A stretch of 44,496 nt of DNA, taken from positions 1-44,496 of the forward strand of contig JAJZFB010000090.1 of the NCBI GenBank assembly GCA_021805545.1. Reading direction: 5' to 3'. The position numbers and the translations under genes are program-made. The DNA comes from Pseudomonadota bacterium (GTDB lineage Bacteria; Pseudomonadota; Alphaproteobacteria; Acetobacterales; Acetobacteraceae). The notes under the pieces are model-generated. The model had not been told where the DNA came from. It did no database searches and saw nothing but the letters and a program-made list of their open reading frames with translations. This document shows positions 39,660 through 44,179 of the stretch, piece by piece (the first letter of the stretch is position 1; each line of letters starts with the position of its first letter).

Positions 39660-40091
39660 ATGCGTATAAAAGCCCTTATTCTCGGCGCCGCCCTGGCGGG
39701 CGGCTTGGCGCTCTCCACCGGCCCGGCGTGGGCCGATTGGGGGGGCGACCATGGCGGTGATTGGCACGGCGGCCCAGGCCCAGGCTGGCACGGCGGCCCA
39801 GGCCCAGGCTGGCATGGCGGCCCAGGCCCAGGCTGGCATGGCGGCCCAGGCCCAGGCTGGAACGGCCATGGCTGGGAAGGACATCAAGACTATCATGACT
39901 GGCATGGCCATGGCTGGTGGGGGGCGGATCATGTCTGGCACTGGTACCCTGGCTGGGGGCCTGGCTATGGCTATATCGGCCCCATGCCTGTCTGGGCGCC
40001 GCCGCCGGTTTATTACGCTCCGCCCCCTGCGATTGTCGTGCCGCCGCCCTCCATCGTTATCACTCCTGGCGGTGTCGGCATCACGCCATAA
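39660..40091 (+). CDS. Secreted Gly/His/Trp-rich repeat protein, function unknown
   Basis: 143 aa. A signal peptide (ALILGAALAGGLALSTGPAWA) is followed by four exact WHGGPGPG octapeptides, then a His/Trp-rich stretch (GHGWEGHQDYHDWHGHGWW) and a Pro/Val-rich tail (PPPVYYAPPPAIVVPPPSIV). The many His residues suggest metal binding, and Gly/Pro repeats suggest an extended surface or periplasmic protein. Similar proteins in proteobacteria are annotated only as hypothetical or YXWGXW-like. It stands alone; hairpins lie on both sides. Confidence 0.7.
   Translation: MRIKALILGAALAGGLALSTGPAWADWGGDHGGDWHGGPGPGWHGGPGPGWHGGPGPGWHGGPGPGWNGHGWEGHQDYHDWHGHGWWGADHVWHWYPGWGPGYGYIGPMPVWAPPPVYYAPPPAIVVPPPSIVITPGGVGITP
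39762..39857 (+). repeat. Four 24-bp in-frame tandem repeats
   Basis: Units at 39762, 39786, 39810 and 39834 differ only by C/T in one His codon (CAC, CAC, CAT, CAT). Each encodes WHGGPGPG. Near identity suggests recent expansion by slippage. Confidence 0.92.
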
Positions 40092-40284: not shown

Positions 40285-41139
40285 TTATGGCCATTTCACC
40301 GCAGGCGGCATGGACATCAAAATCGCCTCGATATTTCCCCCTGTTTTCAGTCCGAACATCGTTCCACGGTCATAAAGCAAGTTGAACTCCACATACCGCC
40401 CGCGCCGCACAAGCTGCGCCTCGCGCTCCTCGGCCATATAAGGTTCTGCGAAGCGCCGCCGGGCAATGGGTAGATAAGCAGCGCAGAACGCCTCTCCCAC
40501 ATCGCGCGTAAAGGCAAAATCCGCCGCGGCATTGCCCGTGTCGAGATAATCGTAGAATATCCCGCCCGCCCCGCGCGGCTCGTTTCTATGCGGCAGATAA
40601 AAATATTCATCGCACCATTGCTTGAATTTTTCGTAATAGGCGGGGTCATGCCGGTCGCACGCTGCCTTGTAGGCGGCATGAAAATGCGCTGCGTCCTCCG
40701 CCGCTTCCGCCGTGCCTGGCTGCAGCGGGGTCAGGTCGCCGCCACCGCCAAACCAGCCCTTGGCCGTCACCAGCATCCGCGTATTCATATGCACAGCGGG
40801 CAGTTTTGGGCTGCGCGGATGCGCCACCAGCGATATTCCCGCCGCCCAGAATTCAGCCCCCGCTGCGGTGCCTGGCATACGTGCCGCGAAATCGGGCGAA
40901 AATTGCCCCTCCACGACGGAAATATTCACCCCCGCTTTTTCAAATACCTGGCCGTGGATGACTGCGCGCGTACCGCCCCCGCCACCGGGCCTGTCCCAGC
41001 TCGTGCGCTCAAACCGGCCGGGATTTGGCCCGGCCAGGTCTTCTATCGCCTCGAATTCGGCGCAGATACGGTCGCGCAGCCGGGTAAACCAGTGTGCAAC
41101 CTCGGTTTTAAGGGCATGGTGCGGGGCGGAGAAGCTCAT
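40285..41139 (-). CDS. hemF: Oxygen-dependent coproporphyrinogen III oxidase
   Basis: 284 aa. Family signatures include [46 protein letters not shown], the [17 protein letters not shown] segment and [16 protein letters not shown], all near-invariant in HemF. It turns coproporphyrinogen III into protoporphyrinogen IX with oxygen, supplying haem. The ATG at 41139 has GGAG five bases upstream and is preferred over an in-frame start at 41175. It diverges from petABC with a 100-bp gap, a sensible pairing of haem supply with a cytochrome complex. Confidence 0.96.
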
Positions 41140-41239
41140 ACGCGCTCCATACGCAAAACATGCCATTTCATCCACTCTTGAAATTTTCTTCCATTGCCGT
41201 CATGGCTGTATCCAGGAGTTTAGCTCCGGGGGAGACGAA

Positions 41240-41794
41240 ATGGCTGAACCAACAGCATCACATGCGCCAGGAGAATCCCGGCGCGATTTCCTGACCATTC
41301 TGGCGGCAGCCACCGGCGCTGTGGCGGCAGGTGCCATTCTATGGCCCGTGGTCGACGCCCTGAACCCGGACCAGGCCGCCGAAGGCACAGGGCAACTCAT
41401 TGTCAACGTGTCCGACATTGCGGAAAACACCGCCAAAACGGTGCAATGGGGCGGGCTGCCGGTCACCATACGCCGGCTCTCCGCGGCTGATATAGCGGCC
41501 AACCAGGACGAGCTGGTGGTACCCTCCACCTTGCCCGCCCCGGCCGATTTCGCCAGCCGCGTAAATGCGGGCTACCCGTCCTTCGTGGTGGTGGTGGGGC
41601 TGAACACAGCCACGCCCTGCGCGCTGGAGGGCGATTCCCCCAGCGAACCGCGCGGCGATTATAATGGATGGGTCTGCCCCTGCGATGGCAGCCAGTACGA
41701 CCCTCTGGGCCGCGTGCGCAAAGGCCCGGCCAAGAGGAATCTCGCCATTCCGCGCTACACATTCATCAATCCGTCGCAAATCCGGCTGGGCTGA
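41240..41794 (+). CDS. petA: Ubiquinol-cytochrome c reductase Rieske-type subunit with missing cluster ligands
   Basis: 184 aa. A Tat-type lead (SRRDFLTILAAATGAVAAGA) and membrane anchor precede the Rieske domain. The usual box 1 CTHLGC reads CALEGD, and box 2 CPCHGS reads CPCDGS, so both ligand histidines and one disulfide cysteine are missing, while the surrounding fold (GDYNGWVCPCDGSQYDPLGRVRKGPAKRNLAIP) is well kept. A normal histidine-ligated [2Fe-2S] cluster cannot form. The frame is clean, with a purine-rich site (GGGGGA) before ATG 41240. It is followed 11 bases later by petB. The frame is open upstream, but that part is antisense to hemF. Confidence 0.88.
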   Translation: MAEPTASHAPGESRRDFLTILAAATGAVAAGAILWPVVDALNPDQAAEGTGQLIVNVSDIAENTAKTVQWGGLPVTIRRLSAADIAANQDELVVPSTLPAPADFASRVNAGYPSFVVVVGLNTATPCALEGDSPSEPRGDYNGWVCPCDGSQYDPLGRVRKGPAKRNLAIPRYTFINPSQIRLG

Positions 41795-41805: not shown

Positions 41806-42924
41806 ATGACCGCACAGACCAATCAATCCTGGGCCGCTTCGCGCCTGCCATGCCTGGCCTCGCTTTGCGCCTGCCTTAATGCCAGAACCATGGCCCCCGG
41901 CGGCTCCTACTTTGCCGCGTTTCCGTTCCTCATCGCCGTGTTGGCGGCCTTCCTGAGCCTTTCGGGCATCGTGCTGGCGGTTTTCTACAACCCCTGGCAT
42001 GCATTCGCTTCCGTGCAGTTCATCAACCGCGACGTGAATCAGGGCTGGCTCATCCGCACCTACCATGCCACGGGCACCACACTCATTTTTGCCCTGGCCT
42101 ATCTGCATCTGTTCCGCTCCATCCTCATCCGCGCCTACCGCGCCCCGGCTGAATTTTCCTGGCTGATGAGCGTGAAGCTGCTGCTGGTGCTGCTGCTCAC
42201 CGGCTGGCTGGGCTTTGTGCTCACCGGTGGCGCGGCGGGGCATTTATCGCTGGTCAACGCCGCCAATGCCGCGCTCTCGCTGGGCGGGCTGCCGGGGGCT
42301 GTGGGCTTGTGGTTCCTGGGCGGCCCGGCGGGCCAAGGCACGCTGGCACGGCTGGAAGTGTTCCACGCCTTGCTTGGCATTTCGCTGCTGCTGGTGGTGT
42401 GGGCCTACTTCGCCAGCCGCAAAGCTGCGGCCCAAGTGGAGCCTGCCAAGGCGGTTGCCTTCTATCCTTATTATCTGGCGCAATATTTCGCGGCGCTGGC
42501 CGTGCTGGCCTTCATCTTCGTGCTGCTCGGCTTTTACGCGCCGGGTGTAAGCGGGGTTGCGGCCAACCACATCCCGGCGGGCGGGCTGGCTCTACCGCTG
42601 GGTGCTGGCGTGCCCTGGTATCTGGCCCCCGCCGCTGGGCTGCTTGGCGTGTTTCCCACCGCCAAGCTGGCCGTGGCCGCCGCCATTGTGGCGGTGGTGC
42701 TGCTCTACGCGCTGCCCTGGCTGGACCGCTCGGGGCCTGACGGCGCCAAGGGCAAGGTTTATTGCTTTTTCACCTGGGTGCTGGCGCTCGATGTTCTGGG
42801 GCTGGGCCTGGCGGCTGCTGGTGTGCTTCCCTTCTCGCCCGTCCTGGCCGTTTTGTTCACTGGCTGGTTCTTCTTCCATTTTCTGGTCCTCACCCCGGTG
42901 GTGACGGCGATGGAGGCCAAATAA
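41806..42924 (+). CDS. petB: Cytochrome b subunit of bc1-like complex, divergent
   Basis: 372 aa with about eight or nine hydrophobic segments. The family layout is clear: INRDVNQGWLIRTYHATG...AYLHLFR on helix B keeps both His, 14 apart; helix D (TLARLEVFHALLGISLLLVVWAYF) keeps the first His but has Tyr where the second is expected. The Qo-site PEWY becomes VPWY (AGVPWYLAP), losing the catalytic Glu, and the LPWGQMSFW loop is replaced by LTGGAAGHLSL. Later FYPYYLAQ, HIPAGGL and LPWLDRS align with the normal protein. So haem bL might still bind, haem bH would be incompletely ligated, and normal quinol oxidation is doubtful. Start 41806 has GAGGGGG in front. TAATG overlap with petC. Confidence 0.88.
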   Translation: MTAQTNQSWAASRLPCLASLCACLNARTMAPGGSYFAAFPFLIAVLAAFLSLSGIVLAVFYNPWHAFASVQFINRDVNQGWLIRTYHATGTTLIFALAYLHLFRSILIRAYRAPAEFSWLMSVKLLLVLLLTGWLGFVLTGGAAGHLSLVNAANAALSLGGLPGAVGLWFLGGPAGQGTLARLEVFHALLGISLLLVVWAYFASRKAAAQVEPAKAVAFYPYYLAQYFAALAVLAFIFVLLGFYAPGVSGVAANHIPAGGLALPLGAGVPWYLAPAAGLLGVFPTAKLAVAAAIVAVVLLYALPWLDRSGPDGAKGKVYCFFTWVLALDVLGLGLAAAGVLPFSPVLAVLFTGWFFFHFLVLTPVVTAMEAK

Positions 42925-43610
42925 TGCGCCGCGTTTTTGCTCTCACCGCCATCCTCACCATTCTTGGCATCGCCAATGCCCATGCCGAGGACACGCTCTC
43001 GCCCCTGCATTTCCAAAGCCAGGGGCCGCTCGGCACCATCGACAAAGCCGCAGCCCAGCGCGGGTACGAGGTGTATAAAAGCGTTTGTGCCGGGTGCCAT
43101 TCGCTGGGCAAGGTGCATTACCGCGACCTGGAAGCCCTGGGCCTGACACCTGCCCAGGCCGCCGGCGAGGCGCTGGCCGCGGGCGGCACGCTCAATTCAC
43201 CCATTAAAGGTGCCGCGCCGCTCAACATGGGGGGCGCCATCCCGCCCGATCTCTCTTCCATCGCCGCGCAGCGCCCTGGCGGGCCGAATTATATCTATAA
43301 CTACCTCACCGGCTTTGGCCCCGCCCCGGCTGGTGTCACGCTGCTGCCCGGCCATAACTACAATGCCGCCTTCCCCGGCGGGCAGACAGCCATGCCGGAC
43401 GTGCTGCACGATGGCGCGGTTACCTATCAGGATGGCGTACAGCCCACCAAGGCGCAGGAAGCGGCGGATGTAGCCGAATTCCTGGCCTGGGCGGCTGACC
43501 CCAACCTGGATGCGCGGCACCAGATTGGCTTCCGCGCCATCATCTTCTTCGCATTCCTGACCATCATCGCCGTGGCCTCCAAGCGGAAGGTATGGCGCAC
43601 ACAGGCATAA
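42924..43610 (+). CDS. petC: Cytochrome c1 subunit
   Basis: 228 aa. A signal peptide (FALTAILTILGIANAHA), the haem motif CAGCH in YKSVCAGCHSLGKVHYRDL, the axial methionine in QTAMPDVL, and a C-terminal membrane helix (IGFRAIIFFAFLTIIAVA) followed by basic residues are all present. PPDLSSIAAQRPGGPNYIYNYLTG is characteristic of c1. It is shorter than many homologues in the region after the haem. Unlike PetA and PetB it shows no loss of cofactor ligands, so the operon still seems to make a haem c electron carrier. It starts inside the petB stop and overlaps the next gene by 19 bases. Confidence 0.92.
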   Translation: MRRVFALTAILTILGIANAHAEDTLSPLHFQSQGPLGTIDKAAAQRGYEVYKSVCAGCHSLGKVHYRDLEALGLTPAQAAGEALAAGGTLNSPIKGAAPLNMGGAIPPDLSSIAAQRPGGPNYIYNYLTGFGPAPAGVTLLPGHNYNAAFPGGQTAMPDVLHDGAVTYQDGVQPTKAQEAADVAEFLAWAADPNLDARHQIGFRAIIFFAFLTIIAVASKRKVWRTQA

Positions 43611-44179
43611 CCCCGCTCGATACGCTGGCAGCGGCGGCGCGGGGCTGTACGCTCTGCGCCGCCGCTCTGCCTTTAGGGCCAAGGCCGGTTTTCCGTGTCT
43701 CGCCCACGGCGCGGCTCCTTGTTATCTCGCAAGCGCCGGGCACCAAGGTTCATGCTTCCGGCCTGCCGTTTGACGACGCATCCGGCGACCGGCTCCGCGG
43801 CTGGATGGGGATAGGCCGCGCCACCTTCTACGACGCCACGAAAATTGCCTTCCTGCCCATGGGGTTCTGTTACCCTGGCCGGCTGCCCAATGGCGGCGAT
43901 GCCCCGCCCCGCCCGGAATGCGCGCCGGCCTGGCACGGTAAATTCCTAGCCCTGTTGCCAGCCGCCGAGTTGATCCTGCTGGTGGGTGGCTACGCGCAGC
44001 GCCGCTATCTAGGTAAGGGCAGCATGACAGCGCATGTGCAAAGCGGGGCAGGGGAGCGCTTTATGCCTTTGCCGCACCCATCCTGGCGCACCACAGGGTG
44101 GGAGACGAAGAACCCCTGGTTCGCGGATAAGGTTCTTCCGCGGCTGAGGGCCGAAATTGCCCGCCTAACCTATCCGTAA
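43592..44179 (+). CDS. Uracil-DNA glycosylase superfamily protein
   Basis: 195 aa. The superfamily fold is suggested by LLVISQAPGTKVHASGLPFDD (a GEAPG-like motif 1 followed by G-x-PF), a middle ELILLVGGYAQRRYL strand, and the late motif LPHPSWR with WETKNPWFADKVLPRLRAEIARL. Four cysteines (CTLC near the N-terminus and two around 90-110) could hold an iron-sulfur cluster as in family 4 enzymes, though their spacing is unusual. It may remove uracil from DNA or belong to a group with altered activity. It starts inside petC and shares its transcript. A strong terminator follows. Confidence 0.8.
   Translation: MAHTGITPLDTLAAAARGCTLCAAALPLGPRPVFRVSPTARLLVISQAPGTKVHASGLPFDDASGDRLRGWMGIGRATFYDATKIAFLPMGFCYPGRLPNGGDAPPRPECAPAWHGKFLALLPAAELILLVGGYAQRRYLGKGSMTAHVQSGAGERFMPLPHPSWRTTGWETKNPWFADKVLPRLRAEIARLTYP

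Follow-up and report, generated by a model that had tools for sequence, protein, structure and literature searches.

The window analysed here is a stretch of 44,496 nucleotides. It corresponds to contig C75 in a genome of 2.79 Mb (96 contigs, completeness 97.75), and its source is taken to be Acidocella. The genes petA, petB and petC lie in this order, and two genes flank them.

40285–41175, minus strand: coproporphyrinogen III oxidase gene, flanking petABC (domain search)
41240–41794, plus strand: petA, Rieske subunit of 184 aa, predicted to be without a usable [2Fe-2S] site (profile match, alignments)
41279–41290, plus strand: Tat twin-arginine motif RRDF, residues 14–17 (sequence; TIGR01409 and UCR_Fe-S_N matches; Arg15 invariant among 30 aligned sequences)
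41603–41620, plus strand: box 1 NTATPC, residues 122–127, replacing CTHLGC (alignment)
41675–41692, plus strand: box 2 CPCDGS, residues 146–151, replacing CPCHGS (alignment)
41806–42924, plus strand: petB, cytochrome b of 372 aa (profile match, alignment)
42924–43610, plus strand: petC, cytochrome c1 of 228 aa with an intact CAGCH heme site (profile match, alignment)
43592–44179: uracil-DNA glycosylase superfamily gene, flanking petABC

The petA product scores 122.1 bits against TIGR01416, 'ubiquinol-cytochrome c reductase iron-sulfur subunit' (cut-off 97.4), and lies below the cut-off for the Pfam Rieske domain (18.6 bits against 20.3). The 184-codon frame on the plus strand is intact, as an earlier sequence-only reading of this DNA had stated. 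That reading proposed a search for a second, canonical petABC in the genome. Protein searches of the own genome at E 0.001 gave a single match each for petA, petB and petC, and thus no second petABC was seen. The genome has 13 PF00355 matches; the window gene is not among them, and none of them matches the petA protein at E 0.001.

An open frame at 39660–40091 of the window shows four near-identical GGPGPGWH-type repeats of Gly, Pro, Trp and His after a signal-like start. It gave no Pfam match at E 0.01.

Cluster site of the Rieske protein

The window protein was aligned with 23 canonical Acetobacteraceae sequences and the solved chain 2yiu_C, and the roles of the ligand and disulfide residues were taken from the yeast protein (PMC3119413). 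In box 1, the canonical segment ICTHLGCIPLGN aligns over LNTATPCALEGD of the window without a gap, and CTHLGC corresponds to NTATPC. The sequence-only reading had placed CALEGD at box 1. This assignment is in the wrong register and was rejected, as NTATPC stands at that place in the ungapped alignment to the canonical relatives. Its box 2, CPCDGS replacing CPCHGS, agrees with the alignment. At the ligand positions, Cys and His of box 1 are replaced by Asn122 and Ala124, His of box 2 is replaced by Asp149, and Cys146 remains. Three of the four cluster ligands are replaced, and the set of two Cys and two His is incomplete. Both cluster histidines are missing, as had been noticed earlier. One disulfide cysteine had also been regarded as lost, but Cys127 and Cys148 of the disulfide pair are both present (the bond itself is predicted); the lost cysteine is the ligand replaced by Asn122.

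The window protein shares with canonical bc1 Rieske proteins (TIGR01416; 2yiu_C, 9fks_c) the profile, the Tat anchor, the disulfide cysteines, the operon position, and the G-S-x-Y-D and GRVRxGP-like segments. It differs from them in the three replaced ligands, and no cluster would be expected. Judged from the residues at the site, the [2Fe-2S] cluster is almost surely absent from the window Rieske protein.

The Acidocella set consists of 35 sequences, the window and L039–L072; L076 and L077 were excluded as repeats of L065 and L066 (identical match figures). The four ligand columns of petA show Asn in 35, Ala in 6 or Gly in 29, Cys in 23 or Ser in 12, and Asp in 35 sequences, whereas both disulfide columns show Cys in 35/35. 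Three cluster ligands are missing in 23/35 and all four in 12/35. An overlapping set of 30 Acidocella sequences gives the same ligand pattern. The question raised earlier, whether the pattern is conserved across a clade, is answered by Asn, Ala/Gly and Asp in all 35. Chance and a sequencing error were rejected on the basis of these 35/35 sequences, the latter also because of a petA copy in another assembly (L039), which is 97% identical to that of the window.

The family search covered 299 genomes, 40 of them without a match. Of the 252 family genomes with a match outside the genus, 43, taken from the better-scoring matches, were examined in two batches, the canonical set of 23 and 20 more. 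All four ligands are kept in 43/43, and the boxes read CTHLGC and CPCHGS in 42. The other sequence, L115 (group g120), is an unusual but ligand-complete Rieske protein with CPHRGC and CPCHGA. As a guess, it is perhaps the Acidisoma intermediate named by Degli Esposti et al. (2023; PMC10715153).

A tree of petA and petB was calculated from 57 rows, 34 Acidocella (L072 dropped) and 23 canonical sequences. A branch with full support separates Acidocella from the canonical sequences. The change of Cys146 to Ser requires at least five changes on this quick tree, in which 16 of the 54 inner branches are weak.

Partner subunits, selection and genome context

The window cytochrome b keeps the heme bL histidines, His87 and His187. 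The heme bH pair is broken, with the helix B His kept and Tyr in helix D, and the Glu of the PEWY motif is Pro270. The protein therefore does not have the bH bis-histidine pair and PEWY Glu of a functional bc1 complex. Across the 35 Acidocella cytochromes b, the bL histidines are present in 35/35 and 34/35, and the pair is kept in 34/35. In contrast, the bH positions hold His in 9/35 and 10/35 and both together in 0/35, even with a tolerance of two columns in helix D; the two positions vary among 12 and 10 residue types, of which His is one. Glu of PEWY is replaced by Pro in 35/35 with Trp and Tyr kept in 35/35, and the PWGQ segment has other residues for its Pro and Trp in 35/35. The CxxCH heme-attachment site of cytochrome c1 is present in 34/34.

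Pairwise dN/dS values were obtained by the NG86 count, leaving out rows L051 and L072. In the class of pairs with dS up to 0.6, the median values of Acidocella are 0.166 for petA (22 pairs), 0.254 for petB (24 pairs) and 0.165 for petC (19 pairs), and those of the canonical relatives are 0.266 for petA (68 pairs) and 0.268 for petB (81 pairs). For pairs with dS of 0.6–1.5, where these GC-rich genes are near saturation and the values are rough, the medians are 0.295, 0.446 and 0.253 in Acidocella, and 0.234 (petA) and 0.175 (petB) in the canonical relatives. The values of both classes indicate purifying selection on the Acidocella petA, as on the canonical genes. As the two classes differ in opposite directions (0.166 vs 0.266; 0.295 vs 0.234), petA shows no clear relaxation or tightening relative to the canonical genes. 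The petB gene is faster than in the canonical kin only in the wider class.

No stop codon was found within petA, petB or petC in any listed genus match. Contig ends truncate the petA of L072 and the petC of L051, the short contig of L054 carries no petC, and the petB match in L045, L055, L060 and L066 begins 7 to 53 residues in. The conserved scaffold under purifying selection described in the sequence-only reading is thus supported by the conserved positions and by dN/dS well below 1; of the counter-evidence that it named, frameshifts are absent from this copy, and petA shows no clear relaxation. The new role that it drew from this selection may exist. A pseudogene was rejected, with the pattern in 35/35 sequences and no stops in the genus matches.

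With L072 dropped as partial, 34 petA positions are invariant in both groups (34/34 Acidocella and 23/23 canonical). The residue is identical at 29 of them. The other five are fixed to a different residue in Acidocella: Ser to Ala40, Arg to Leu80, Cys to Asn122, Pro to Leu129, and His to Asp149. Two cytochrome b positions are switched likewise in at least 34/35, Glu to Pro270 and Gly to Ala230. In contrast to the variable heme bH ligand positions, these replacements look like a new fixed state rather than free drift. Fixation of Asn122 and Asp149 hints at something beyond a structural remnant, a point against the structural role favoured below.

In the genus, petB is found in 36/38 and petC in 35/38 genomes, and both are present in 23/23 genomes with a completeness of 90% or more and a contamination of 5% or less. 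The petA gene is found in 34 of 37 genomes (the own genome plus the genus), and the three genomes without it are 77 to 85% complete. CtaD is above the cut-off in 26/38 genus genomes, the own genome included; the other 12 give fragments or weaker matches. All 38 genus genomes have a NuoH (PF00146) match, which is weaker and paralogue-like in G036, G033 and G029. For NuoD, G029 has a strong match, and G036 and G033, both of which keep the deranged petABC, have only weak PF00346 matches. The genes flanking nuo in the own genome, which we take to encode a Lon-like and an RNase J-like protein, have weak or no match in G036 and G033, and both are present in the control G034. Because these flanking genes are also missing, the apparent absence of Complex I from G036 and G033 is likely an assembly gap, and the two genomes were rejected as Complex I-less holders of petABC that would contradict the published Complex I idea. 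As a Complex I match is found in 38/38, co-occurrence does not discriminate for this idea.

Second, weaker NuoH-like and NuoD-like matches lie close together at G000:C2 13552–14454 and 17278–17733. We guess that this pair probably belongs to a hydrogenase-type or similar membrane complex.

Role of the petABC complex

The core finding, the loss of cluster ligands from the Rieske protein of Acidocella, has been known since 2023. Degli Esposti et al. (2023; PMC10715153) described the deranged petABC/bc1 of Acidocella: three or four cluster ligands of the ISP are missing and the disulfide cysteines kept, the heme bH histidines of cytochrome b are lost, and c1 is intact. They also proposed a structural role for the deranged complex, in support of Complex I. 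The window operon has both the deranged ISP and the petABC with a bH-less cytochrome b; the genus, the operon and the losses are the same as those given in that main text, and there is no difference in kind. Compared with the main text of PMC10715153, the present analysis adds the five fixed-residue sites, the repeated loss of the last ligand, the fixed Glu-to-Pro change in cytochrome b, and a His-less gammaproteobacterial Rieske protein. That main text, the supplement apart, does not use the words asparagine, aspartate, purifying or PEWY. Among the best-ranked literature results, PMC10715153 was the only paper on natural Rieske proteins without cluster ligands, and a search for 'degenerate Rieske' gave no paper. 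PMC5322542 has no bearing on such proteins.

A structural role of complex III has long been argued from supercomplex studies. From the computed ligand losses, conservation, frames, dN/dS below 1 and co-occurrence, we infer that the operon probably encodes a disulfide-held apo-Rieske protein; the bc1 complex that contains it would be assembled but non-catalytic, and would be retained because of a structural role. The Rieske subunit would be exported via the Tat route. Its head would be folded and held by the Cys127–Cys148 disulfide without a [2Fe-2S] cluster, and the apo protein would be part of an assembled petABC complex of the bc1 type. Because the cluster ligands, a complete pair of heme bH ligands and the Glu of the Qo-site PEWY are all gone, a Q cycle should not be possible by the known mechanism. 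The retained parts, namely the bL ligands, the c1 heme, and the anchor, fold and disulfide cysteines of the Rieske protein, are those that would be expected for building the complex. The hemes that are kept would be the ones that assembly of the complex requires. The complex III scaffold may support other respiratory complexes, either Complex I, or cytochrome oxidase docking through c1, or both. A structural function is most likely, though the kept heme bL ligands and c1 could instead mean retained electron transfer.

Two results on cluster-less complexes bear on the apo form. In yeast, failed cluster insertion into the ISP leads to impaired assembly and protease sensitivity (PMC3119413). Assembly of the Acidocella apo form is thus not a given, because the yeast ISP without the cluster assembles poorly. 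In addition, bc1 complexes without the cluster are reported to be proton permeable (PMC3119413), and for this reason the Glu-to-Pro change may help to close a proton path in an acidophile. The Cys146 still present in 23/35 is a point against the apo form.

It is also conceivable, though unlikely, that cytochrome c1 is the reason for keeping the complex. In this case, petA and petB would hold a membrane-anchored c-type cytochrome that connects periplasmic cytochromes to cytochrome oxidase. CxxCH in 34/34, the low dN/dS of petC (0.165) and CtaD above the cut-off in 26/38 genus genomes, the own genome included, are consistent with this idea, and iron oxidation has been argued to feed c-cytochromes in these taxa (PMC10715153). 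However, the fixed residues of the Rieske head and the kept bL ligands are left unexplained, and for the 12 genomes with CtaD fragments or weak matches, absence and fragmented assembly are not separable.

Rather improbable is a new non-redox site in the cluster pocket, where Asn122 and Asp149, with Cys146 or Ser146, would form a fixed hydrogen-bond network or a binder of a single metal or ligand, and would have a new job in the complex. The five positions invariant within each group yet different between them (34/34 vs 23/23), Asn122 and Asp149 included, point to such a site, the more so as the bH ligand positions vary so widely. On the other hand, the fixation may merely stabilize empty loops, and the adjacent former His position is just Ala or Gly.

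As one of two options, the sequence-only reading had considered a cluster bound by Cys, Cys and the new Asp; a different iron-sulfur centre on these residues falls under the same idea. Asp149, fixed in 35/35, and Cys146, in 23/35, would suit such a centre. However, in the alignment the disulfide pair falls on Cys127 and Cys148, and the partner cytochrome b is also without the full heme bH pair and the Qo Glu. The centre is very unlikely, because the box 1 ligand Cys is also gone and the sole remaining ligand Cys is Ser in 12/35 (at least five changes on the quick tree). A decaying pseudo-operon heading for loss is hardly credible and fails as it stands, since the only sign of it, a petB dN/dS above the canonical value in the rough dS 0.6–1.5 class (0.446 vs 0.175), is not seen at dS up to 0.6 (0.254 vs 0.268), and it is opposed by zero stops within the listed genus matches, by petA and petC values well below 1, and by petB and petC in 23/23 genus genomes at least 90% complete.

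Under the preferred reading, an apo-Rieske protein in a structural bc1 complex, Acidocella is of wider use. Where a respiratory complex keeps its parts but not its catalytic cofactor sites, nature offers a clean test of what complex III does structurally; here the structural question is separable from bc1 catalysis, which is probably absent. Concrete residues to probe are given by the fixed replacements.

His-less Rieske paralogue in gammaproteobacteria

A stand-alone Rieske paralogue was found at three gammaproteobacterial loci, one of which is named as OM182 clade.

L073, 1632–2159: stand-alone Rieske paralogue
L074, 8001–8528: stand-alone Rieske paralogue
L075, 1240–1767: stand-alone Rieske paralogue

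In all three, the boxes read CTLLSC and CPCDGS; both histidines are replaced, and the four cysteines are kept. No cytochrome b or c1 gene was seen beside the paralogue at these loci, and the literature search gave no paper on an OM182 Rieske protein. In two of the three genomes, a canonical petA (CTHLSC and CPCHGS; TIGR01416 204–205 bits) is also present (L101, L102). The paralogue resembles the Acidocella Rieske protein in the replacement of both histidines, with His to Asp in box 2. It differs in that all four cysteines are kept, in standing alone, and in the canonical petA present in 2/3 of the genomes. This His-less Rieske protein is thus distinct from the Acidocella case.

A bolder reading joins the two cases. 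The pocket would have been rebuilt in the Acidocella ancestor, where Asn122, Leu129 and Asp149 were fixed together with the Glu-to-Pro change of cytochrome b; this would give a sealed two-heme (bL, c1) complex that does not run the Q cycle and has a new job, in which the Rieske head would be redox-inert and serve as a module for docking or binding. On this view, the same His-to-Asp change would have come about a second time, by an independent conversion, in the gammaproteobacterial (OM182) paralogue. We regard this proposal as doubtful. Because all four cysteines are kept, the gammaproteobacterial paralogue may hold an all-Cys or Asp-ligated cluster.
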